Below, piece by piece: positions 33,782-47,354 of a stretch of DNA of 64,000 bases. The DNA lies in NCBI RefSeq assembly GCF_030816915.1, contig NZ_JAUSYN010000002.1:620001-684000 (forward strand), written 5' to 3'. This stretch comes from Streptomyces sp. B3I8 (GTDB taxonomy: Bacteria; Actinomycetota; Actinomycetes; Streptomycetales; Streptomycetaceae). The notes beneath the pieces are model-generated. The model saw only the letters and a list, made by a program, of their open reading frames with translations, made no database searches and had not been told where the DNA came from. How positions within the stretch are numbered: the first letter of the stretch is position 1; each line of letters starts with the position of its first letter. A program made the position numbers and the translations under genes.

Positions 33782-34567
33782 TCAGCGTGCGGGGCTGACC
33801 GTGTCCAGCAGTCGGCCCTCCTCGTAGGCAGCGGCCTCCGGCGGCAGCGGCGCCTCGCGCCCGCTCAGGAGCACCGTCAGCGTGCCCCGTACCGCGGCCT
33901 CCGGGTCCGGGAGCGCGCCGAGGCGGCGCAGCGCCTGCGCGGCGACGGCGGTGGCGGACCCGTGCAGGACCGGCGAGGGGCGGCCGGGGCCGCGCAGGGC
34001 GGCGCGGATGCGCTCGGCGACGAGCTCGTAGTGGGTGCAGCCGAGGACGACGGTCCTCACGTGGTCCGGCGTGCGCGCGGCGGCGTCGGCGATCGCGGCG
34101 TCGATCGCGGTCTCGTCGGCGTGCTGCACGGCCTCGGCGAGACCGGGGCAGGCCACCTCGGTGACGTCCAGGTCGTCGGCGAACTCCCGGATGAGGCCGC
34201 GCTGGTAGGGGCTGCCGGTCGTGGCGGGGGTGGCCCAGATGGCGAAGGGTGCGCCGCCGGCCGCTGCCGGCTTGATCGCGGGGACGGTGCCGATGACCCG
34301 CAGCCCGGGTTCGAGGCGGGCCCGCAGCGTGGGCAGGGCGTGCACGGAGGCGGTGTTGCAGGCGACGATCAGCGCGTCGGGGCGCTGTGCGGCGGCGGCC
34401 TCGGCGACGGCCACGGCATGAGCGGTGAGATCCTCGGGGGTGCGCGGGCCCCAGGGCATGCTGTCGGGGTCGGAGGACAGCACGAGATCGGCGTCGGGCC
34501 GCAGTCGGCGTACCGCGGCGGCGGTCGGGAGCAGTCCGATTCCTGAGTCCATGAGCGCGATCTTCAC
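33782..34567 (-). CDS. Glutamate/aspartate racemase-family protein
   Basis: 261 residues. Family features: N-terminal IALMDSGIGLLPT (Asp-Ser catalytic loop), ALIVACNTASVHALP with the first catalytic Cys (about 75) and VVLGCTHYELVAE with the second Cys (about 180). It could make D-Glu for peptidoglycan, but the sequence around the substrate loop (WATPATTGSPYQRGLI) differs from housekeeping MurI, so it may serve another amino acid. Single gene. Confidence 0.82.
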   Translation of the reverse strand: MKIALMDSGIGLLPTAAAVRRLRPDADLVLSSDPDSMPWGPRTPEDLTAHAVAVAEAAAAQRPDALIVACNTASVHALPTLRARLEPGLRVIGTVPAIKPAAAGGAPFAIWATPATTGSPYQRGLIREFADDLDVTEVACPGLAEAVQHADETAIDAAIADAAARTPDHVRTVVLGCTHYELVAERIRAALRGPGRPSPVLHGSATAVAAQALRRLGALPDPEAAVRGTLTVLLSGREAPLPPEAAAYEEGRLLDTVSPAR

Positions 34568-34604
34568 CCGGTCACCTTAGACGATCCGTGTCGGGAGGCC
34601 GCCG

Positions 34605-35801
34605 GTGTGGGGCAGACTGCGGCGGATGAGTGCCGTTGTGTGGATCGCCCTGGGATCGCTCCTCGCCTGGCTGTGGCTGCTGCTCGGCCAGGGCTTCTTC
34701 TGGCGCACGGACGTCCGGCTGCCGCTCCGCCGGGACCCGGAGGTGTGGCCCCCCGTGTGCGTCGTCGTACCGGCCCGGGACGAGGCGGAGGTGCTCCCCC
34801 GGAGTCTGCCCACGCTGCTGACGCAGGAGTATCCCGGGCGGGCCGAGGTCTTCCTCGTCGACGACGGCAGTACCGACGGCACCGGGGAACTGGCCGCGGA
34901 GCTGTCCCGGCGCCACGGCGGTCTGCCGCTGACCGTGACCTCCCCCGGCGAGCCGCCCGCCGGCTGGACCGGAAAGCTGTGGGCCGTGCGGCACGGCATC
35001 GGCCTGGCCCGCACCCGTGAGCCCGCGTTCCTGCTGCTGACGGACGCCGACATCGCGCACGCCCCGGACAGCCTGCGGTCCCTGGTCGCCGCGGCCGAGA
35101 CCGGGGCGTACGACCTGGTGTCCCAGATGGCGCGGCTGCGCGTGGAGAGCCGGTGGGAGCGGTTCGTCGTCCCGGCCTTCGTCTACTTCTTCGCGCAGCT
35201 CTATCCCTTCCGGTGGATCGGCGTGCGGGGCGGGCGCACGGCGGCGGCGGCCGGCGGCTGTGTGCTGCTGCGCGCGGAGGCGGCCGAGCGGGCGCGGATC
35301 CCGGACGCGATCCGGCAGGCGGTCATCGACGACGTGGCGCTGGCGCGGGCCGTGAAGGGCGGCGGCGGGCACATCTGGCTGGGGCTGGCCGACCGGGTCG
35401 ACAGCGTCCGCCCCTACCCGCGGCTGCGCGACCTGTGGCACATGGTCGCGCGCAGCGCGTACGCGCAGCTCCGGCACAGCCCGCTGCTGCTGCTCGGCAC
35501 CGTCCTCGGGCTGGCCCTGGTGTATCTGGTGCCGCCGGTGGCGTTCCTCGCCGGCCTCGTCACCGGGTCCTGGGCGGCCGCGGCGGCCGGGGGGCTCGCA
35601 TGGCTGGTGATGACGGCGACGTTCGTGCCGATGCTGCGCTACTACCGCCTGCCGCCGTGGCTCGCCCCCCTGCTGCCGTTCACCGCGCTCCTCTATCTGC
35701 TGATGACGGTGGACTCGGCGGTGCGGCACTACCGGGGGCGCGGTGCCGCCTGGAAGGGCCGGACCTACGCCCGGCCCGACACGGCCCTCGAGGAGAGCTG
35801 A
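34605..35801 (+). CDS. hpnB: Family 2 glycosyltransferase of the hopene-associated HpnB type
   Basis: 398 residues; GTG 34605 with GGGAGG 6 bp upstream, or ATG 34626. N-terminal TM, then the GT2 domain VCVVVPARDEAEVLPRSLPTLLTQEYPGRAEVFLVDDGSTDGTG, PAGWTGKLWAVRHGI, LLLTDADIAHAPDSLRSL (DxD), YPFRWIGVRGGRTAAAAGGCVLLRAEA and VIDDVALARAVK, matching the HpnB signature along its whole length. Three C-terminal TM helices. HpnB normally sits in hopanoid clusters; no squalene/hopene cyclase gene is nearby here, so it is an orphan. A role in glycosylating hopanoids or another lipid is inferred. Confidence 0.85.
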   Translation: MWGRLRRMSAVVWIALGSLLAWLWLLLGQGFFWRTDVRLPLRRDPEVWPPVCVVVPARDEAEVLPRSLPTLLTQEYPGRAEVFLVDDGSTDGTGELAAELSRRHGGLPLTVTSPGEPPAGWTGKLWAVRHGIGLARTREPAFLLLTDADIAHAPDSLRSLVAAAETGAYDLVSQMARLRVESRWERFVVPAFVYFFAQLYPFRWIGVRGGRTAAAAGGCVLLRAEAAERARIPDAIRQAVIDDVALARAVKGGGGHIWLGLADRVDSVRPYPRLRDLWHMVARSAYAQLRHSPLLLLGTVLGLALVYLVPPVAFLAGLVTGSWAAAAAGGLAWLVMTATFVPMLRYYRLPPWLAPLLPFTALLYLLMTVDSAVRHYRGRGAAWKGRTYARPDTALEES

Positions 35802-35819: not shown

Positions 35820-37157
35820 TCACTTGCGGCCGGGGGTCCAGTTCATGCCCCAGCCGTAGGCGCGGTCGAGGGTGCGCTGGGGGCTGACCCCGCGGTCCGG
35901 GACCAGGTAGCGCGCCTCGCGCTGGACGACGAGATCGCCGCCGGTGTTGGTGATCAGGGCGAGCGCGCACACGGTGGAGGGCACCGTGCACTCGTCGAGG
36001 GAGAAGTCGACGGGTGCGCCGTGCTGCGGCCGCAGGGTGACGGTGGCGTGCAGGTCGGCGAAGGAGCGGGCGCCCTCGTAGATGGTCACGAACACGAGGA
36101 TGCGGCGGAAGTCCCGCAGGTGGTCGAGGTTGATGGTGAGGTTCTCGCCGGTCTCGACCGCGCCGGTGCGGTCGTCGCCGTCGAGGTGGATGTACGGCGG
36201 CCGGTCCAGCGCGCCGAAGGCGTTGCCGAGGGCCTGGACGACGCCCTTGCGCCCGTCGGCGAGTTCGAACAGGGCGCACAGGTCCAGGTCGAGGTCGCGG
36301 TGGTGGGCGACGGCCCGGCCGCGCTTGCTGCCCCAGCCGGAGAACTGCTTGCGCACCTCCCAGTTGAGGTTGACGCGCATGGCACCGGAGGTGCCGCCCT
36401 GCTTGGCGAGGGAGACGGAGGGGGCCTCCTTGGTGAGCGTCACCTTGGCGAGGCGGACGGGGGCGGGCGACGCCGGCGGCGGGGGCGGTGCCGCCGGGGA
36501 GACACCCACGGGGGGTGGCAGTGGCACGGGGGCGCCGGTGGGCGGGGGCGCGGTGACGGGCGCGGCCGGCCAGTCGACACGAGGTGCGGGAGCCGGGGCC
36601 TGGGCGGTTGCCGGGGTGGTGGCGGCCGGTCGCTGCGGCTCGTCCACGGTGATGCCGAAGTCCGTGGCGAGCCCTTCCAGTCCGCTGCTGTATCCCTGGC
36701 CGACGGCGCGGAACTTCCAGGCGCCCTGACGCCGGTACAGCTCCCCGAGGACGAAGGCGGTCTCGACGGTCGCGGTGGCGTCGAAGCGTGCGACCTCCTC
36801 GCCGCTGCGTGCGTCCAGCACGCGGATGTACAGCCCGGGCACCTGTCCGAAGGTGCCGCCGTCGACGGAGGCCGCGAGGACGATGCGGTCGATCGCACCC
36901 TCGACGCGGGGGAGGTCGACGAGGAGCGTGTCGGTCACCTCGCCGCCGGTGGTCCGGCTGCCCTCGTGGCGCACCGCGCCGGAAGCGTGCGTGGGCTGGT
37001 TGTAGAAGACGAAGTCGGCGTCGGTGCGCACCCTTCCCGAGTCCAGCAGGAGTGCCGAGGCGTCCGCGCCGGGCACCCCCGGACCGGACCGCCGGCCCAG
37101 TTCGACGCGGAGTTCCGCCGTCGGCACCGGAACGTTCGCCCCCTTCAGCATGGACAT
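35820..37157 (-). CDS. Double TerD-domain (tellurium resistance family) protein
   Basis: 445 residues from ATG 37157 (GAGGGGGAGC upstream). First TerD domain about 1-170 ([74 protein letters not shown]). A Pro/Ala-rich linker spans about 175-235. A second, divergent TerD-like domain ([62 protein letters not shown]) with acidic Ca-binding loops follows. TerD proteins bind calcium and act in stress responses; this one is not in a ter operon. It is divergent from a DUF6643 gene with a 300-bp spacer. Confidence 0.9.
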
Positions 37158-37457
37158 GCTGCTCCCCCTCACACCTCTCGGCACCGGCCCGCCCGGCGGC
37201 GGCGCCGTCGGAGGGTTTCCAGCCAAATCTACGGCGCCGTGTCCCGGGAATCCCCGTGCGTCACTTTCCTGGACGGAAGGGCGCCGGACCGCTGGTCACC
37301 AGCCCCGGAGCGCGGCCTATACCGCATCAGGACGCCAGTCGCCGCCCCTTTTCGGCGAGTTCGCTCGTATTGGGGATCCGACGTCACCAGCCGACACGGA
37401 AAACAACCCTCTTATCGGTCTCCCCAACCAGCACATCGTGGGCTTAACTTATGTGCC
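37158..37457. other. Divergent promoter region, TerD / DUF6643
   Basis: 300 bp with no gene, relatively AT-rich at 37340-37450. TAACTT (37445-37450) directly before the DUF6643 start could be a -10. Boxes for the TerD gene were not assigned. Confidence 0.4.
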
Positions 37458-38040: not shown

Positions 38041-38868
38041 ATGCCGAAACCAGCGCTGCACTCGCTCCACATCCACCCGGTCAAAGCGCTGCGGGCCCAG
38101 CCCTTGCCCGCGGCCGTGGTCGAGCCTTGGGGGCTGGCCGGGGACCGGCGCTGGGCGGTGATCGACGACACCGGCAAGGTCCTCACCCAGCGTGAGGAAC
38201 CGCGCCTGGCGACTGCCGCCGCCGAGGCCCTGCCCGGCGGCGGCATCGTGCTGTCCGCGCCCGGCCGGGAACCGCTCACGGTCGCCGTGCCGGAGCCGGG
38301 CGTCACCACGACGGCGCGGATCTTCGGGCAGAAGGTGGACCTGGTGTCCGCCGGCACCGAGGCGCGGGACTGGCTCAGCGGCCATCTGGACAGCGACGTC
38401 TTCCTGGCCCACCTCGACGACCCCGCCGTGCGCAGGCCCATCGACGATCCGCCGTACAGCTCCCCCGGCGAGATGGTCAGCCTCGCCGACCGCTACCCCC
38501 TGCTGCTCACCACGCTCGCCTCCCTCGACTCCCTCAACGCACTGATCGCGCGGGGCGATCACGCGGCGGAGGGCCCGCTGCCGATGAACAGGTTCCGGCC
38601 CGGCGCCGTCGTCTCGGGCACCGAACCCTGGGCCGAGGACGACTGGAACCGGGTGGCGATCGGCGAGGTCGTCTTCCGCGTGGCCAAGTTGTCCGGACGC
38701 TGCGTGGTGACCACCACGGACCAGGACACCGGGGCCCGCGGCAGGGAACCACTGCGCACCCTCGCACGGCACCGGCGCTTCGACGGCCGGCTGGTCTTCG
38801 GCCAGAACCTCGTCCCGCTGACCACAGGGACGATACGGGTGGGCGACCCCGTCGAGGTGCTGGGCTAG
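38041..38868 (+). CDS. MOSC domain protein
   Basis: 275 residues. N-terminal MOSC_N beta-barrel (LHSLHIHPVKALRAQPLPAAVVEPWGLAGDRRWAVIDDTGKVLTQREEPRLA), then the MOSC domain with NRFRPGAVVSGTEPWAEDDWNRVAIGEVVFRVAKLSGRCVVTTTDQDTG, where Cys in SGRCVVTT is the conserved molybdenum-ligand position, and FGQNLVPLTTGTIRVGDPVEVL. Likely a molybdenum cofactor-dependent reductase or sulfur-carrier enzyme of the mARC type. Single gene. Confidence 0.92.
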   Translation: MPKPALHSLHIHPVKALRAQPLPAAVVEPWGLAGDRRWAVIDDTGKVLTQREEPRLATAAAEALPGGGIVLSAPGREPLTVAVPEPGVTTTARIFGQKVDLVSAGTEARDWLSGHLDSDVFLAHLDDPAVRRPIDDPPYSSPGEMVSLADRYPLLLTTLASLDSLNALIARGDHAAEGPLPMNRFRPGAVVSGTEPWAEDDWNRVAIGEVVFRVAKLSGRCVVTTTDQDTGARGREPLRTLARHRRFDGRLVFGQNLVPLTTGTIRVGDPVEVLG

Positions 38869-39067: not shown

Positions 39068-39682
39068 GTGGGGCGGTTGCGGGCGGTTCGCGGACTCTGG
39101 CGCTGGCGGGGCAATCCACTGCGTCGTACGACCGACCTGGTCGAGGCATGGCTGGCACTGGTCGCCCTCGTGCTGATCCTCGTCGTGGCGCCGCTGGTCG
39201 GCGCCGCCGTGGGGGCGGCCACGCAGGACGCCCTGCAACACGCCGTGCGGGAGCAACGGCACGCCCGTCACGAGGTGGTGGCCACAGTCGTCCGAAGACT
39301 GGACCACAGCCCGCTGGACCCCGATCCGGAGACCGCCACCGCCCGGGACGCGCACAGTCACGTCCTGGCGAGCTGGACGGGCCCGGACGGCACGGTCCGG
39401 CACGGGGCCGTCCTGGCCGACCTCGAACAGCCGCGTCACGGCGACCACTTCACCCTGTGGACCAACGCCCGCGGCCACCCGGTGGACCGTCCGCTGGACA
39501 CGGTCACGGCCACCACCCACGCCGTCCTGGCGGGCTTCGGCTCGGCCGTCGCGGCGGCCGGACTCGTCGAGGGCGGCAGACGGTTGCTGGTGTGGCGCAT
39601 GGTCCGTCGCCGGTACGCCCGCCTGGACCGGGCGTGGGAGAAGGCCGGCCCGGACTGGGGTCGCACCGGCACCGACGCCTGA
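39068..39682 (+). CDS. Rv1733c-family membrane protein, second paralogue
   Basis: 204 residues from GTG 39068 with GGAAGG close upstream. Same layout as the protein at 16664-17251: basic N-terminus, [37 protein letters not shown] (TM1), [15 protein letters not shown], extracytoplasmic [36 protein letters not shown]2 ([18 protein letters not shown]) and a basic tail. It precedes the beta-helix/AAA+ gene by 107 bp, which may indicate a functional link. Confidence 0.85.
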
Positions 39683-39789
39683 ACGGCCTTCGGCTCCGGT
39701 CCGTCCACCCGCCCCGCGCACGCTACGGTGGACCGGCCGAACTCTTCGGCAACGACCCGCGTACGACGAGGTGGGGGCACGGCAACGCC

Positions 39790-42237
39790 ATGGCACAGGG
39801 CACGGTCCAGGTGACGCACACCGGTACATCGAGGTGGCGGCGCCGCACGGGTGAGTACGCGTCCCTCGCCGCCGCGCTGGAGGCCGCGGGCGACGGCGAC
39901 GTCCTCACCGTCGCCCCGGGCACCTATCGGGAGAACCTCGTCGTCCAGCGGGCGGTGACGCTGCGCGGGCCGGAGGGTTCGCCCGGTTCCGTGCGCATCG
40001 CCCCCGTGGACGGGGTGCCGTTGACCGTCCGCGCCTCCGCGGTCGTGCAGGACCTGCACGTGGAGGGCCAGGACGCGTCCGCGCCGGCCGTCCTGGTGGA
40101 GGAGGGCACCCCCGAGCTCACCGATCTGCGGATCATGACGCGTTCGTCGGCCGGGATCGAGGTGCGGGCCGAGGCCCGTCCCACCGTCCGGCGCTGCACG
40201 GTGGACAACCCGGCGGGTGTCGGGATCGCCGTGGTCGACGGCGGGGGCGGGGTGTTCGAGGAGTGCGAGGTGGTCGCGGCGGGCCAGTCCGGCGTGGCCG
40301 TGCGCGGGGGCGCGCGGCCCCGGCTGGAGCGCTGCCGAGTGCACCACGCCTCGGGCGCGGGGCTGTCGGTCACCGGGGAGAACTCCTCGCTGGAGGGCGT
40401 CGGTTGCGAGGTCTACGAGATCAAGGGCTCCGGTGTGCAGGTGACCGGGCGGGGGACGGCGCACCTCACCGACTGCGACGTGCACCGCACCACCGCGGAC
40501 GGCGTCACCCTGGACACGGACGCGGTGCTGACCCTCGCCGACTGCCGCATCCACGACGTGCCGGAGAACGCGGTCGACCTCCGCTCGCGCGCGGTCCTCA
40601 CACTGACCCGCACGACGGTGCGCCAGTTCGGGCGCAACGGGCTGTCGGTCTGGGACCCGGGCACCCGTGTGGACGCCAACCAGTGCGAGATCTTCGACTC
40701 CACCGGCGACTACCCGGCGGTGTGGATCAGTGACGGCGCCACCGTGGTCCTGGAGTCCTGCCGGGTGCACGACGTGCCGGACGCGCTGTTCGTGCTCGAC
40801 CGGGGCTCGCGCGCCGACGTGATCGACAGCGACCTGACGCAGGTGCGCAACACCGCGGTGTCGGTGAGCGACGGCGCGACCGCGCAGTTGGACGACTGCC
40901 GGATCAAGGACGCGGCGACGGGCGCCTGGTTCCGCGACCACGGCAGCGGCGGCACCCTGAGCGGCTGCACGGTGGACGGCGTGCAGACGGGCGTGATCGT
41001 CACCAAGGGCGCCGATCCCACCGTCGAGCGCTGCACCATCGCCTCCCCGGCGGAGGCCGGCTTCTACGTCTCGGCGGGCGGCCGGGGCACCTTCCAGAAC
41101 TGCCGGGTCACCGACAGCGACGGATACGGCTTCCATGTGATCGACGGCTGCCGTACGACGCTGCGCAAGTGCCGTACGGAACGGTGCGCGCGCGGGGGTT
41201 ACGAGTTCGCGGACGGCGGGCCGGAGGCTCCGGGCGGTGGCGGCGCGCTCGTCGAGGACTGCACCAGCGACGAGAGCACGAGCCTGCGCTCCCCCGCCCG
41301 GGAGACGGCCGTGCAGACCACACCGGCACCCGGGTCCGGGCTGCTGGGGTCCATCCCCGGTCAGCGCACCACGGAGCCGCAGGGCCTGGTGGCGGCGCCC
41401 GAACCGGCGGCCCCGGCGGCCCGCACCTCGGAGGCGGTGCTGGGCGAACTGGACGCGCTGGTGGGGCTGGAGAGCGTCAAGCGCGAGGTGCGGGCCCTGA
41501 CCGACATGATCGAGGTGGGACGGCGCCGCCGGCAGGCGGGCCTGAAGGCGGCCTCCGTACGACGCCACCTGGTGTTCACCGGCTCCCCCGGCACCGGCAA
41601 GACGACGGTGGCCCGGCTGTACGGGGAGATCCTGGCCTCGCTCGGGGTGCTGGAGAAGGGCCATCTGGTCGAGGTGTCCCGGGTCGACCTGGTGGGCGAG
41701 CACATCGGCTCCACCGCCATCCGCACCCAGGAGGCGTTCGACCGGGCGCGCGGCGGTGTGCTGTTCATCGACGAGGCGTACGCACTGTCCCCCGAGGACT
41801 CCGGCCGCGACTTCGGCCGTGAGGCGATCGACACGCTGGTGAAGCTGATGGAGGACCACCGGGAGGCGGTGGTGGTGATCGTCGCCGGCTACACCGCCGA
41901 GATGGAGCGCTTCCTGAGCGTCAACCCGGGGGTCGCCTCCCGCTTCTCACGGACGATCACCTTCGGCGACTACGGCCCCGAGGAGCTGCTGCGGATCGTG
42001 GAGCAGCAGGCGGAGGAGCAGGAGTACCGGCTGGCGGAGGGGGCGTCCGAGGCACTGTTGAAGTATTTCGCGGCGATACCGAAGGGCCCCGCCTTCGGCA
42101 ACGGCCGTACGGCGCGGCAGACGTTCGAGGCGATGGTGGAGCGGCACGCGGGCCGGGTCGCCCAGTTCGCCGAACCGAGCACGGACGACCTGACGCTGCT
42201 CTATCCGGAGGACCTGCCGGAACTGCCGGGCGCCTGA
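39790..42237 (+). CDS. Fusion of right-handed parallel beta-helix domain with CbbX/EccA-type AAA+ ATPase
   Basis: 815 residues from ATG 39790 (upstream frame lacks coding character). Residues about 20-530 are ~20 beta-helix turns of ~22 residues, e.g. [29 protein letters not shown], like NosD/PbH1 repeats, rich in C-x-V/I strands. A Pro/Ala linker follows (540-585), then an AAA+ domain: [25 protein letters not shown], Walker [14 protein letters not shown] (about 598-606), Walker [15 protein letters not shown] (about 657-663), sensor region [24 protein letters not shown] with Arg finger near 718. The ATPase is of the CbbX/EccA/SpoVK group, which remodel proteins or drive type VII secretion. 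No signal peptide, so it is cytosolic. Its end overlaps the converging hydrolase gene by 37 bp. Confidence 0.92.
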
Positions 42238-44561
42238 GGCGTGTTGTCCGTGGGTGCCGTGCCGTCCGCCTCCTCGACGGGGCGGGGGGCCGGCACTCCG
42301 GGCCGCAGCCGGGCCAGCAGCAGTCGGCGTTCCTCGGCGAACGCCGGGTCCGCCTGGTAGTCGCTGTGCCCCAGGATCGGGGCCGGCAGCGGGTGCAGCG
42401 CGGTGCGGCCGTAGGCGAGCGGGTCCTTGAGCGGGGCGCGGTCCACCTCGGGACCGCAGTCGCCGGGCAGCCGGACCGGCCCGCCGATGGGGTCGGTGAG
42501 CCGGTAGAGGTTGCGCCAGCAGTCGACCTCACGGTGCAGGGCGCTGAGCGAGGCGGGCCCGAAGTGCGCCGGGAACCAGCGCCCGTACAGCCGTTCCAGG
42601 GGTGAGCCGTAGGTCAGCAGGGCCACCCGGCGGCGTACCGAGGGCTTGAGCTGCCAGGCCGCCGCGGCGGCGAGCACACTGCCCTGGGAGTGGCCGGAGA
42701 GCACCAGCCGGCCGCCGGTGGAGCCGGTCCAGGTCGCCATGCGCCAGGTCAGGTCGGGCACGGCGCGCTCGGCGTAGCAGGGTGGGGCGAAGGGATGCGC
42801 GGCGCGCGGCCAGAAGGTGCCGACGTCCCACAGGATGCCGATGGTGCGGCGGGCGGCGGGGTCCTTGTAGGCGCGTCGGCCCCAGGTGACGAAGAGCAGG
42901 AAGCCGACCCCTATCAGCCAGGAGCCGCACGCCTGGGTGGTGTCGGCGGCGCCCTGCAGCGCGGAGGAGGTGCCGCGGGCGGCGTCGCCGGGGACCTCGT
43001 CGGTGAGTTCGGCGCCGACCAGTGAGGCGGTGCCGAGCAGCAGCGTGGCGACGGCGACGACGCCGATGACGCGGGGGGCCAGGTCGGTGAGGGGGGCCAT
43101 CGCCCTGGCCCCGGCGATACGGCGGGTGCGGGCGGCGTCGGTGGGTTCGCCGGGGTGGTCGCGCTCGACCTGGACGGCCTCGGCCCGGCGCAGTCGCAGG
43201 GTGCGGCGCGCCAGCAGGGCGACGACCACGAGCAGCAGCAGGAGCAGCGGCGGGATCGCGGAGGCCTGCCAGGTGAGCAGGACGGGCGGTCCGGGCAGGG
43301 TGCGGCGGGTGCCGTCGAGCCAGTCGGAGACCCGCTGGGCGACGCCGCCGGACATCACCCCGCCGAGCGCGCAGGCGAGCATGGCGACGGCGGGGCCGGC
43401 CAGCCCGCGCAGCGCGGTGCGCGGGTGACGGTGCGTGCGGTACAGGGTGTGGGCGACCAGGGCGAGTACGACGACGAGCAGGCACTGCGTGAGGGTGAGC
43501 GTGCCGAACACCCGGTCGCCCGGCAGCCGTCCGGCCGACCGCCAGTCGGGGCGCGACCAGCAGGCGTACCCGAGCGAGAGCACGAGCAGGGCCAGGGAGC
43601 TCATGGGCAGCAGGCGGACCAGGGCGCGGTCGAGCCCCCGGTCGAGACGGTTCTCGGTGCGACCGCGGCGGCAGACCACCCAGACCACGACGAGCGCGCC
43701 GGCCACGTACGCCGACTCGAACAGCGGGGCCAGGGCGTCGAGGAGCGCGGGTCCGCCCGGGCGTCGGTCCTGGCGGGCGGCGGCGGTTCCGACGGCCGCG
43801 GCGACGGTGAGGAGGGCGGCGGCGGTGTGCGCGGCGCGCAGCCGGGCCACGAGTCGGCGCCCGTACCAGAAGCCGGGGCGGGCGAGCGCGCTGCGGTAGG
43901 CGTCCTCCCCTGCTTCCCCGTCGGCCTCCTCGTCCTGCGGCGGTGGCGGCTGGGACTCGTAGGCGCTCCAGGTGCGGTGGGAGAGGTACCACAGCAGTCC
44001 GGTGAGGGCGGTCGGCACGAGCGCGGCCAGGGCGAGCCGGCGGCCGGGCTCGCTCCACCAGCCGCCGTCGGAGACGACGGGTGACAGGAAGCCGAGCCAG
44101 GAGTGCCGCCCGGCGCACGCGGGGGTGCCCGCGCACTGCCAGGCGGTGAGGTCGAGGGCGACCTCGCAGGCGGCGGCGACCAGCAGCACCGTGAGGCTGA
44201 GTCCGGCGAGCCGCACCAGGAGGCCGTACAGGCGTACGGTCCGGATGCGGTGACCCTCGGTGCTGGGGCGCATCCAGTGGGCCAGGTTGACCACCATGAA
44301 CGGCAGGAGCAGCAGCCACAGGGCGCGCGAGCCGTTGCCGGAGGTGAGGTTGCACCAGACGTAGGCCTCGGGCACCGGCGCGTCGCCGTGGTCGGCGGGC
44401 CGTTCCTCGGCGTCGACGTCGTCGGCGCGGCGGAAGACGGCGGCGGTGTCGTCGCCGGTGATCCGGACCGTGCGCGGATCGTTCAGCATCTCCTGCGGAG
44501 TGGTGCCGCCGACCCCGTGGACCAGGAGTTCCAGGGTGTTCTGTGCCGCTGCGTGTTCCAC
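42201..44561 (-). CDS. Large polytopic membrane protein with C-terminal alpha/beta-hydrolase (lipase-like) domain
   Basis: 786 residues. It starts [26 protein letters not shown] (a lipase-like HGxGG oxyanion motif near residue 16), followed by about 10-12 TM helices (about 75-580) and a C-terminal part with [23 protein letters not shown], the GxSxG nucleophile elbow (Ser about 655), Asp in [10 protein letters not shown] and His in LGHSDYQAD. The N-terminal HGVGG and the C-terminal GHSQG would belong to one hydrolase fold split by the membrane part. Probably acts on lipids or esters at the cytoplasmic face. Substrate unknown. Divergent from a DeoR regulator; converges with and overlaps the AAA+ gene. 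Confidence 0.85.
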
Positions 44562-44945
44562 CGTCTCGCACTTCCCCCGCGCGCGGTGCGCGCCTGTGGC
44601 GGGCGTCTGTCTTCATGTCATGTGCAGGCACAGGATTGCCGATGTGGGGCACGGCCACACCTGTGTGACCGAAATGTTTTCAGGATGCGTGACGCGCGGG
44701 CAGGAGAAACGCGGCCGACGACGCCCCCCGGCACCGGTCCGAGGGTGCCGCCTGCACGGTCGGCGGCAGGGACGGCGATGGTGCGGGCAGTGGCGCGGAT
44801 GTCGCTGGGGCGTGCGAGGATGGGGCGTCCTTCGCCACCGCCGCCCCTCGGTACGCGCCGGTCGGAGCCGGTACGGACGCCGTGCGGCGGGTGGTGCGCG
44901 CAAGGACCGGACGGAGTCGGGACGAGGAAAGGATCCGCAGCGGAC
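44562..44945. other. Divergent intergenic region (membrane hydrolase / deoR)
   Basis: 384 bp without a gene. The stretch 44600-44700 is less GC-rich and carries TGTGG-N7-CCACA (44643-44659), a possible operator. Promoter boxes not assigned. Confidence 0.4.
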
Positions 44946-45815
44946 GTGAGCGAGAATCAGAACCTGCTCGCGGAGCAGCGCCGCACCCTGATCCTCGACG
45001 AGGTACGCCGACGCGGCGGCGTCCGGGTCAACGAGCTGACGCGCAAGCTCGGCGTCTCCGACATGACGGTCCGCCGGGATCTCGACGCGCTGGCCCGCCA
45101 GGGCGTGCTGGAGAAGGTGCACGGCGGCGCGGTGCCGGTGGTCGAGGCGAGCACGCACGAGCCCGGGTTCGAGGCCAAGTCGGGCCTGGAGCTGACCGCC
45201 AAGGAGGACATCGCGCGGGCGGCGGCCCAACTGGTCGCGCCGGGCACGGCGATCGCGCTCTCCGGCGGCACGACGACGTACGCGCTGGCGCACCACCTGC
45301 TGGACGTGCCGGACCTCACCGTCGTCACCAACTCGGTGCGCGTGGCCGACGTCTTCCACTCCGCGCAGCGCGCCATGGGCCGCCGGCAGGGCGCGGCCAC
45401 GGTGGTGCTGACCGGCGGGGTGCGCACACCGTCCGACTCGCTGGTGGGCCCGGTCGCCGACCAGGCGATCGCCGCACTCCACTTCGACGTCCTGTTCCTC
45501 GGCGTGCACGGGATATCCGCCGAGGCGGGTCTGTCGACGCCGAATCTGGCCGAGGCCGAGACGAACCGGCGGCTGGTGCAGTCCGCGCGGCGTGTGGTGG
45601 TGGTCGCCGACCACACCAAGTGGGGCACGGTGGGGCTGAGTTCGTTCGCCACGCTGGAGCAGGTGGACACGCTGGTGACCGACTCGGGGCTGCCGGGCGA
45701 GGCCCGGGCGGAGATGGCGGAACACCTCGACCGACTGGTGGTGGCCGGAGAACCGGAGGAGCGGGAGGCTCCGGAGCCGGCACAGCAGGCACAGACGGCG
45801 GAGGGATCGGGCTGA
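44946..45815 (+). CDS. DeoR family transcriptional regulator
   Basis: 289 residues from GTG 44946 (AGGAAAGGAT upstream). N-terminal DeoR helix-turn-helix RRTLILDEVRRRGGVRVNELTRKLGVSDMTVRRDLDALARQGVLEKVHGGAV, then the sugar-phosphate-binding DeoRC domain with GGTTTYALAHHLL, TVVTNSVRVADVF, LTGGVRTPSDSLVGPVADQAI, FLGVHGISAEAGLSTPNLAEAETNRRLV and VVADHTKWG. It should respond to a phosphorylated sugar. No sugar operon is adjacent, so the target is elsewhere or unknown. Confidence 0.93.
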   Translation: MSENQNLLAEQRRTLILDEVRRRGGVRVNELTRKLGVSDMTVRRDLDALARQGVLEKVHGGAVPVVEASTHEPGFEAKSGLELTAKEDIARAAAQLVAPGTAIALSGGTTTYALAHHLLDVPDLTVVTNSVRVADVFHSAQRAMGRRQGAATVVLTGGVRTPSDSLVGPVADQAIAALHFDVLFLGVHGISAEAGLSTPNLAEAETNRRLVQSARRVVVVADHTKWGTVGLSSFATLEQVDTLVTDSGLPGEARAEMAEHLDRLVVAGEPEEREAPEPAQQAQTAEGSG

Positions 45816-45870: not shown

Positions 45871-46995
45871 CTACTCCGACCAGGCCCCCGTGCTCAGCAG
45901 GGTGTCGATCGCGGCCGCGTACGGGGCGACGTCCAGTCCCTCCGCCGCGAGCCAGGCGTCCGAGTAGTACTTGTCCAGATAGCGCTCCCCCGGGTCGCAC
46001 AGCAGGGTGACGACGCTCCCCCGGCGCCCCTCGGCCACCATCTCCGCGACGATCTTCAGCGCGCTCCACAGTCCGGTTCCCGTACTGCCGCCCGCCTTGC
46101 GGCCCGTGACGCGGTCCAGCGCGCGGACGGCGGCGACGGCGGCCGCGTCCGGCACCTTCATCATGCGGTCGACGGCGCCCGGCACGAAGCTGGGCTCCAT
46201 GCGCGGCCGGCCGATCCCCTCGATGCGGGAGCCCCGCTCGCAGACGACGCCCGGGTCACCGGTCGTCCACCCCTCGAAGAAACAGGAGTTCTCCGGGTCG
46301 GCGACACAGACGCGGGTGTCGTACTGCATGTAGTGCACGTACCGGGCGATGGTCGCGGAGGTGCCGCCGGTGCCCGCCGTGGCGACGACCCACGCGGGCT
46401 CGGGGAACCGTTCCCGTTCGAGCTGGCGGAAGACGGACTCGGCGATGTTGTTGTTGCCGCGCCAGTCCGTGGCCCGTTCCGCGTAGGTGAACTGGTCCAT
46501 GTAGTGGCCGCCGGTCTCCGCCGCGAGGCGGGCGGACTCCTCGTACATCGTGCGCGGGTCGTCGACGTAGTGGCACCGGCCGCCGTGGAACTCGATCAGG
46601 CGGATCTTCTCCGCGCTCGTCGTGCGTGGCATGACCGCGATGAACGGCACGCCGATCAGTTTGGCGAAATACGCCTCCGAGACGGCCGTCGAACCGCTGG
46701 ACGCCTCGATCACCGGGCGGCCCGGGCGGATCCACCCGTTGCACAGCCCGTAGAGGAAGAGCGAGCGGGCCAGACGGTGCTTGAGGCTGCCTGTGGGGTG
46801 CGTCGACTCGTCCTTGAGATAGAGGTCGACGCCCCACTGTTCGGGCAGCGGGAAGAGCAGGAGGTGCGTGTCGGCCGAGCGGTTGGCGTCCGCCTGCACC
46901 TTGCGCACGGCCTCTTTGAGCCAGTGCCGGTACGACACGTCGGTCCGGTCGACGTCGAGGGTGGCGCCGGGCTGGTGGGTGGGGGTGGTGCTCAC
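45871..46995 (-). CDS. PLP-dependent cysteine synthase-family enzyme (Cds1-like)
   Basis: 374 residues from GTG 46995 (AAGGAG upstream). Fold-type II PLP enzyme: [19 protein letters not shown] with the PLP-binding Lys (about 72), [29 protein letters not shown], the glycine-rich phosphate-binding loop [15 protein letters not shown], and [42 protein letters not shown]. The whole resembles the actinobacterial cysteine desulfhydrase Cds1 more than CysK/CysM. It may release sulfide from cysteine. A CTTTGAG-GTA-CTCAAAG palindrome lies 100 bp upstream. Confidence 0.9.
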
Positions 46996-47354
46996 GCCGG
47001 GACTCCTTACACGGTGCGCCGAGAGCGCCTCCGTGCGCCCGGACGTCTCGATGATAGGCACGCTTGCGCACGCTTCCCACCTGCATAAACACGTCTTTGA
47101 GGTACTCAAAGGTGGTCCTGGGGGCCGGGATGGGCGCGCAAGGGGGGCGCGCTCGCGTGTGTGCGCCCGGTGATGCACGGTGCACCCCTTATGCGCACTG
47201 GTGCTCGGGGCCGTGCGCGGGCAGACTGCACGGCGCGGGACCGTTCGACCGCTCGGACGCTCGGACGCTCGGACGGGCCGGGTTCGGAAGTCGTACGGCC
47301 ATGCCCGCGCGGAACCACGGAGGACCACCCAGGCGCACGAGGGGGCGGAACACC
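46996..47354. other. Divergent intergenic region (Cds1-like / unknown gene)
   Basis: 359 bp without a gene. It contains a perfect inverted repeat CTTTGAG-GTA-CTCAAAG (47095-47111) and three consecutive copies of CTCGGACG (47252-47275). Confidence 0.5.
47095..47111. promoter_or_regulatory. Inverted repeat CTTTGAG-GTA-CTCAAAG
   Basis: Perfect 7-bp arms with a 3-bp centre, 100 bp upstream of the cysteine-synthase-family gene. Candidate operator for a regulator of this gene. Confidence 0.5.

Follow-up and report, generated by a model that had tools for sequence, protein, structure and literature searches.

The window analysed here, a 64-kb stretch of Streptomyces sp. B3I8 (positions are given in whole-window numbering), encodes a fusion of a long beta-helix to an AAA+ motor. 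We propose, at a probability of roughly 0.6, that this fusion works in the cytosol as an AAA+ chaperone of the CbbX/SpoVK/EccA clade that remodels a specific client, and that it stands alone and acts independently of the adjacent Rv1733c-family gene, of the adjacent membrane hydrolase and of the chromosomal ESX (type VII secretion) locus. The motor of the protein is intact (Walker A and B, sensor 1 GY, arginine finger and sensor 2), and a flexible linker joins it to the beta-helix. The fusion is retained where the Rv1733c gene, the hydrolase or the chromosomal ESX locus is missing, and so requires none of the three. By analogy with the clade, six subunits would assemble into a ring, the beta-helices would recruit one kind of client, and the motor would thread the tail of the client through the pore, whereby the client would be disassembled or activated, as CbbX does with Rubisco.

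Motor, pore loop and beta-helix

A first-pass annotation of this DNA had described a long beta-helix fused to a CbbX/EccA-type AAA+ motor, and this architecture is confirmed (815 residues, with a helix of ~470 residues, a linker and one motor). The AAA and AAA_lid_6 domains scored 62.1 and 59.1 bits, each above the Pfam cut-off. Assignment by motif places Walker A at K604, Walker B at D661-E662, the sensor 1 GY at 700-701, the arginine finger at R718 and sensor 2 at R776. Sensor 1 reads AGY in 49/49 rows of the core clade, and sensor 2 is GNGRTAR or one of the variants GNAREAR, GNGRAAR and GNGRDAR in the same 49 rows. The sensor 1 GY and the sensor-2 arginine are among the features of the CbbX/SpoVK/EccA clade in the accessible portion of PMC10659427, and the fusion has both. 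N712 lies six residues ahead of R718 (NPGVASR); the paper places an asparagine four residues ahead of whichever arginine it counts as the first arginine finger.

Constraint is distributed unevenly along the protein. In 32 core-clade rows, invariant positions amount to 2% of the linker (residues 496-543), 13% of the helix and 49% of the AAA+ domain. Within the basic N-terminal RWRRR motif, R15, W16, R18 and R19 are invariant and R17 is present in at least 90% of these rows; the motif was not seen in the N-termini examined of other beta-helix AAA+ relatives. No strongly hydrophobic segment was detected by hydropathy, and export is for this reason not suggested, a signal peptide itself not having been searched for. 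The earlier proposal that the helix could be a substrate platform is retained, and the helix is plausibly a recruiting platform.

Pore loop 1 of the fusion, DLVGEHIG by motif, contains His638. The core-clade form, DLVGEH[IV]GSTA, was matched in 49/49 core rows. In a second set, the best 80 of 497 loci, we dropped L171-L174 (AAA+ part only) and L155 (69 bits), which left 42 core and 33 non-core loci; His is present in 41 of the 42 core loci, a count biased toward His because one search pattern included this residue, and the exception, L096, has Tyr. By alignment, the corresponding loop is QYIG in CbbX and EYEG in EccA1; QYIG is also found in the short relatives with a single motor. Where a relative carries two AAA+ domains, the usual residue is Val or Ile in domain one and Tyr or Phe in domain two; L142 (Tyr in the first domain) and L151 and L168 (His in the first domain) are exceptions. 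Thus, His is typical of the core clade, yet not unique to it. This single residue enables a simple mechanistic test. Separately, tandem relatives such as L136, L137, L139, L146, L147 and similar proteins mostly have a non-aromatic pore-loop residue (Val/Ile) in their first AAA+ domain and an aromatic one (Tyr or Phe) in their second, a sequence pattern suggesting that two rings divide the work.

SpoVK of Bacillus subtilis activates MurG, and the Streptomyces family consists of spore-forming mycelial bacteria. The client of the fusion might be a peptidoglycan or envelope enzyme, in a role like that of SpoVK. The best NCBIfam score of the motor is indeed that of SpoVK (TIGR02881, 274.5 bits), and the accessible text of PMC10659427 argues that the CbbX/SpoVK/EccA clade may regulate envelope enzymes. 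The score, however, falls far under the SpoVK cut-off of 422.95, the short MurG-binding N-terminal domain that the same text gives for SpoVK is replaced by the beta-helix, and the constant neighbours include no recognisable envelope gene. We consider an envelope client of this kind unlikely.

Conservation, promoter-like motif and neighbouring genes

The combination had been called uncommon, a description that does not survive comparison. Orthologues are present in 118/121 genomes of the genus, as judged by row-by-row reading (G073, G102 and G106 are fragmentary or split); the higher tally of 121/121 genomes with some match arises because paralogues are counted. In the family, a match at E<=1e-100 was found in 100/101 genomes and 16/17 genera. 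By these counts, the fusion clade approaches the status of a core gene of the whole family. Of 394 genomes sampled from the class, 42 pass E<=1e-110; 40 belong to the genus itself, and in the other two part of the query aligns at 40-43% identity (352 genomes had no match, part of which are listed). At the looser threshold of E<=1e-3, 2108 protein clusters match the fusion, the 120 listed being full length. Antibiotics come mainly from streptomycetes, and a gene that all but one of the family genomes retain, and whose role we did not find in print, is a clear target for study.

Upstream alignment of 43 core loci revealed GTCAAC, then TACGGT and then a purine-rich ribosome site, the first two separated by 19 bases in the three rows counted (L017, L038 and L095). 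The window has its own version of the first element, GTCCAC. The motif CGCTACGGT occurs within 300 bp 5' of 76/90 core orthologues, compared to 33/1800 random stretches taken from these loci, a control in which some stretches may overlap the true site. It also occurs at several loci that gave no Rv1733c gene (L057, L060, L061, L097 and L112). The GTCAAC-TACGGT/CGCTACGGT element has the appearance of a promoter, and its conservation is strong in Streptomyces and patchy in other genera.

The first-pass annotation had also placed an Rv1733c-family gene 107 bp upstream of the fusion gene and a membrane hydrolase gene overlapping it tail to tail. Both placements proved correct. In the 118 genus genomes with the fusion, the Rv1733c gene lies just upstream on the same strand in 107 and the hydrolase gene just downstream on the opposite strand in 107, with both present in 96. 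At 19 core loci from 15 other genera (counted by eye), where the fusion is found at all 19, the DeoR and PLP-enzyme (pyridoxal-phosphate-dependent enzyme) genes occur at 13 each, the MOSC gene at 12, the Rv1733c gene and the hydrolase at 7 each and both of the latter at 4. Conservation of the three-gene neighbourhood therefore holds within the genus, but the genes are separable outside it. The Rv1733c gene and the hydrolase are each found at 37 of the 42 core loci of the 80-locus set, again by eye. Across the family, the hydrolase was matched at E<=1e-20 in 60/101 genomes, and in 56 of these 60 the two genes are arranged tail to tail; 41 of the 100 family genomes with the fusion gave no hydrolase match at this threshold. 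The hydrolase is therefore nearly always beside the fusion, while the fusion is independent of the hydrolase. Neither partner was found at the Kitasatospora loci L097 and L112 or at L101. The fusion is more conserved than either partner, and the DeoR and PLP-enzyme genes are about equal to it in this respect.

These counts bear on the reading that had first been offered, a possible three-gene membrane-processing system; in it, the AAA+ protein would act on the Rv1733c protein or the membrane hydrolase, by extraction or activation. The gene order kept in the genus speaks for it, and the tail-to-tail asymmetry of the hydrolase favours some link to the fusion; in a partial version, the hydrolase would be one client where it is present. 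Adjacency by itself, however, is weak evidence, because the region is in part conserved backbone. The fusion persists in the 41 family genomes with no hydrolase match and at the three loci with neither partner, in the genus it is preceded by a separate promoter-like motif, the hydrolase gene faces it in convergent orientation, and conservation of the fusion exceeds that of both partners. The three-gene system is thus unsupported, and we regard it as quite improbable.

Kinship with type VII secretion and the case for a stand-alone chaperone

The fusion and the beta-helix proteins of EccA type encoded in type VII secretion loci have a common ancestry. In the same genome, paralogues at C1:349k and C2:6761k sit with EccB, EccC, EccD and mycosin, and a further one at C2:1977k sits with EccC and, by a weak match, EccD. 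These paralogues belong to three additional type VII-like loci with beta-helix AAA+ proteins (L066, C2:1970313-1987000; L067, C1:341000-359000; L068, C2:6753000-6771000), two of them with tandem AAA+ domains and one on a 465-kb second contig. Elsewhere, ecc genes adjoin beta-helix AAA+ proteins in 5/6 annotated plasmid loci. At least one secretion gene was counted by eye at 15/24 non-core loci, a sample that is not random: it was drawn from second-rank matches and 6 of 20 listed plasmid matches (37 records in all), 5 of those 6 plasmids carry annotated secretion genes, L069 (AAA+ part only) was left out, and the secretion link of L078 and L082 was scored from weak matches (58 and 49 bits). In the 80-locus set, a secretion gene lies within 5 kb at 18/33 non-core loci (also by eye; L138 and L140 come from short contigs or the ends of contigs).

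In contrast, no secretion gene was found at any of the 19 core loci from other genera, or within 5 kb at any of the 42 core loci of the 80-locus set. With queries from one plasmid locus, EccB, EccC, EccD and mycosin had no match at E<=1e-6 in the window. The core clade is separate in a tree of AAA+ domains (24 rows, Shimodaira-Hasegawa-like approximate likelihood ratio support of 99), which was a quick tree with a very long outgroup branch, in which the better match of two AAA+ domains was taken. It is conceivable, at somewhat less than even odds, that the family took a beta-helix AAA+ protein of the EccA kind out of secretion and made of it a core, independently transcribed chaperone with a fixed pore-loop His and a new basic head.

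The same kinship allows for the fusion to be an EccA in trans that serves the chromosomal ESX locus of this genome. That 29-kb stretch has EccB, mycosin, EccC and EccD matches and none to a fusion-like AAA+ protein, and relatives of the same architecture are often located in type VII loci. A fusion that served this locus would be expected to be kept along with it. The ESX EccB was matched in 84/101 family genomes (E<=1e-20), yet all 17 genomes without a match, in which a diverged EccB could have escaped, keep the fusion, and this weakens the proposal. Furthermore, a weak EccB match remains in the lone family genome that lacks the fusion. We hold service to the ESX locus to be a slim prospect. 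Slimmer by far is the prospect that the beta-helix is itself an enzyme of the lyase or epimerase type that the AAA+ domain merely regulates. Its fold matches to AlgE4, pectate lyase and alginate lyases speak for this reading, yet they do not by themselves prove function, the protein lacks a strongly hydrophobic segment, and the helix has 13% invariant positions against 49% in the motor.

Three further candidates were set aside. Rubisco activation lacks a recognised target, as PF00016 (Rubisco large subunit) had no match in the genome at E<=1e-3. For anti-phage defence, the PADLOC matches of the AAA+ part were weak, the best being IetA at 30.1 bits. Dormancy control by OsdR/DevR, an idea taken from the Rv1733c name, is not borne out: the window has three sites with 3 mismatches, none of them near the locus, and 10/100 shuffles reach three. 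The word Rv1733c is absent from the text of PMC5069765.

Several observations weigh against a stand-alone remodelling chaperone. The hexamer and the threading are taken over from the clade by analogy, and, with the usual aromatic missing from the pore loop, threading could be weak or absent. The His is not a clean marker, in light of the first AAA+ domains of L151 and L168 and the Tyr of core row L096. Exact CGCTACGGT is absent from 13/18 loci of other genera (L046-L064) and present in 5/18. The gene is not strictly essential, as the orthologue is missing from G032, G050 and G079 in the genus and G264 in the family, two of these four being incomplete assemblies (79-82% class). A search of the open-access literature on the fusion found no client, expression or mutant data, and candidate S. 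coelicolor locus numbers led to no secure orthologue.

The locus, its hydrolase and comparison with known systems

The features of the locus are collected below.

Features of the fusion locus and its neighbours, in window coordinates
Feature	Coordinates	Strand	Evidence
Beta-helix/AAA+ fusion, 815 aa, stop within coordinates	39790..42237	+	
RWRRR motif, N-terminal, residues 15-19	39832..39846	+	alignment; low model confidence in region
Right-handed parallel beta-helix, residues ~20-490 (~470 residues)	39847..41259	+	domain search, model, fold matches
Disordered linker, residues 496-540	41275..41409	+	predicted local distance difference test (pLDDT) <50
AAA+ motor, residues 545-815	41422..42234	+	alignment to CbbX and EccA1, motif counts, invariant columns
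Promoter-like motif CGCTACGGT, in 107-bp gap 5' of fusion	39721..39729	+	upstream alignment, motif count
Rv1733c-family protein, 204 aa	39068..39682	+	NF050032, 203.7 bits; hydropathy
Most likely alpha/beta-hydrolase split by large membrane insert, 786 aa	42201..44561	-	27-row alignment, model, fold matches
MOSC-domain protein, upstream neighbour	38041..38868	+	in 12/19 cross-genus loci
DeoR/GlpR-type regulator, start approximate, downstream neighbour	44907..45815	+	in 13/19 cross-genus loci
PLP-dependent enzyme (Pfam PALP), downstream neighbour	45871..47328	-	in 13/19 cross-genus loci, one match weak

The Rv1733c-family product belongs to its family by score (NF050032, cut-off 80). The top NCBIfam score of the DeoR/GlpR-type regulator was 197.7 bits, under the cut-off of 300, and the PLP-dependent enzyme may be cysteine-synthase-like. 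Further upstream, TerD-domain, Asp/Glu racemase-like, glycosyltransferase 2 and MOSC proteins (35820-37226 on the minus strand, 33782-35801 and 38041-38868) form a block that is partly conserved in several other genera.

The convergent gene at 42201-44561 had been described as a membrane domain joined to a lipase-like GHSQG hydrolase. Both parts are present, but the join is not a simple one, as the insert splits the hydrolase. The model (pLDDT 71.5, predicted template modelling score 0.77, with residues 724-732 of low confidence) has strands 9-16, 31-36, 41-45 and 63-70 before a helical membrane region and 618-624, 646-651 and 682-685 after it; the insert is polytopic and covers residues ~76-564. 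Structure matches to TesA, cutinases and LCAT extend over both hydrolase parts, such that the alpha/beta-hydrolase fold spans the insert. Because strands flank the insert and these matches cross both parts, the model most likely represents an alpha/beta-hydrolase with an inserted membrane domain. HG15-16, S625 (of GHSQG), D690 and H732 are invariant in 27 orthologues, which makes S625, D690 and H732 a candidate Ser-Asp-His triad. At the thresholds used, neither Pfam nor NCBIfam matched the protein, and Foldseek gave no match at E<=0.001; PHROGs gave 13.7 bits, and a profile search against solved sequences gave a cutinase at E 0.028, which is not significant. It is possibly a member of an undescribed family of membrane esterases or lipases.

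In the open-access literature, we found nothing on the function of the fusion beyond the available portions of PMC10659427 and PMC13118837. The latter reports a beta-helix cluster and a DeoR/GlpR regulator cluster (1455), each syntenic with cysK. The beta-helix cluster is probably the fusion gene, as judged by name and neighbours alone, and the available passage mentions neither an AAA+ motor nor a function. A beta-helix in EccA is already published, as PMC10659427, in its accessible portion, names tetratricopeptide repeats (TPRs) and a beta-helix as EccA N-domains. The combination of a beta-helix with AAA+ is known in kind; as far as the open-access literature searched shows, the variant described here, a stand-alone clade spread across a family, appears to be new.

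Among known systems, CbbX, the red-type Rubisco activase, has Tyr in QYIG, whereas the fusion has His638 and a beta-helix N-domain in a genome with no match to the Rubisco large subunit. SpoVK, the MurG chaperone of Bacillus sporulation, gave the top NCBIfam score of the motor but with its cut-off missed, and its N-domain differs from that of the fusion. The fusion scored 239.8 bits against EccA TIGR03922, below the curated cut-off of 466.65; by the searches above it is not in an ESX locus, and a beta-helix takes the place of the TPR N-domain, which, going by the portion of PMC10659427 available, is not required of an EccA. The beta-helix EccA-type proteins are the closest in design, having the same order of helix and CbbX-type AAA+ and ~32-43% identity over much of the protein. 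The fusion differs from them in the RWRRR head and in having no secretion genes found nearby; it has a single AAA+ domain, whereas many of these relatives have two, and a pore-loop His where most single-motor relatives have Tyr. The secretion-tied and stand-alone beta-helix AAA+ proteins thus offer a natural comparison, which could show how clients are picked within this little-known clade of chaperones.
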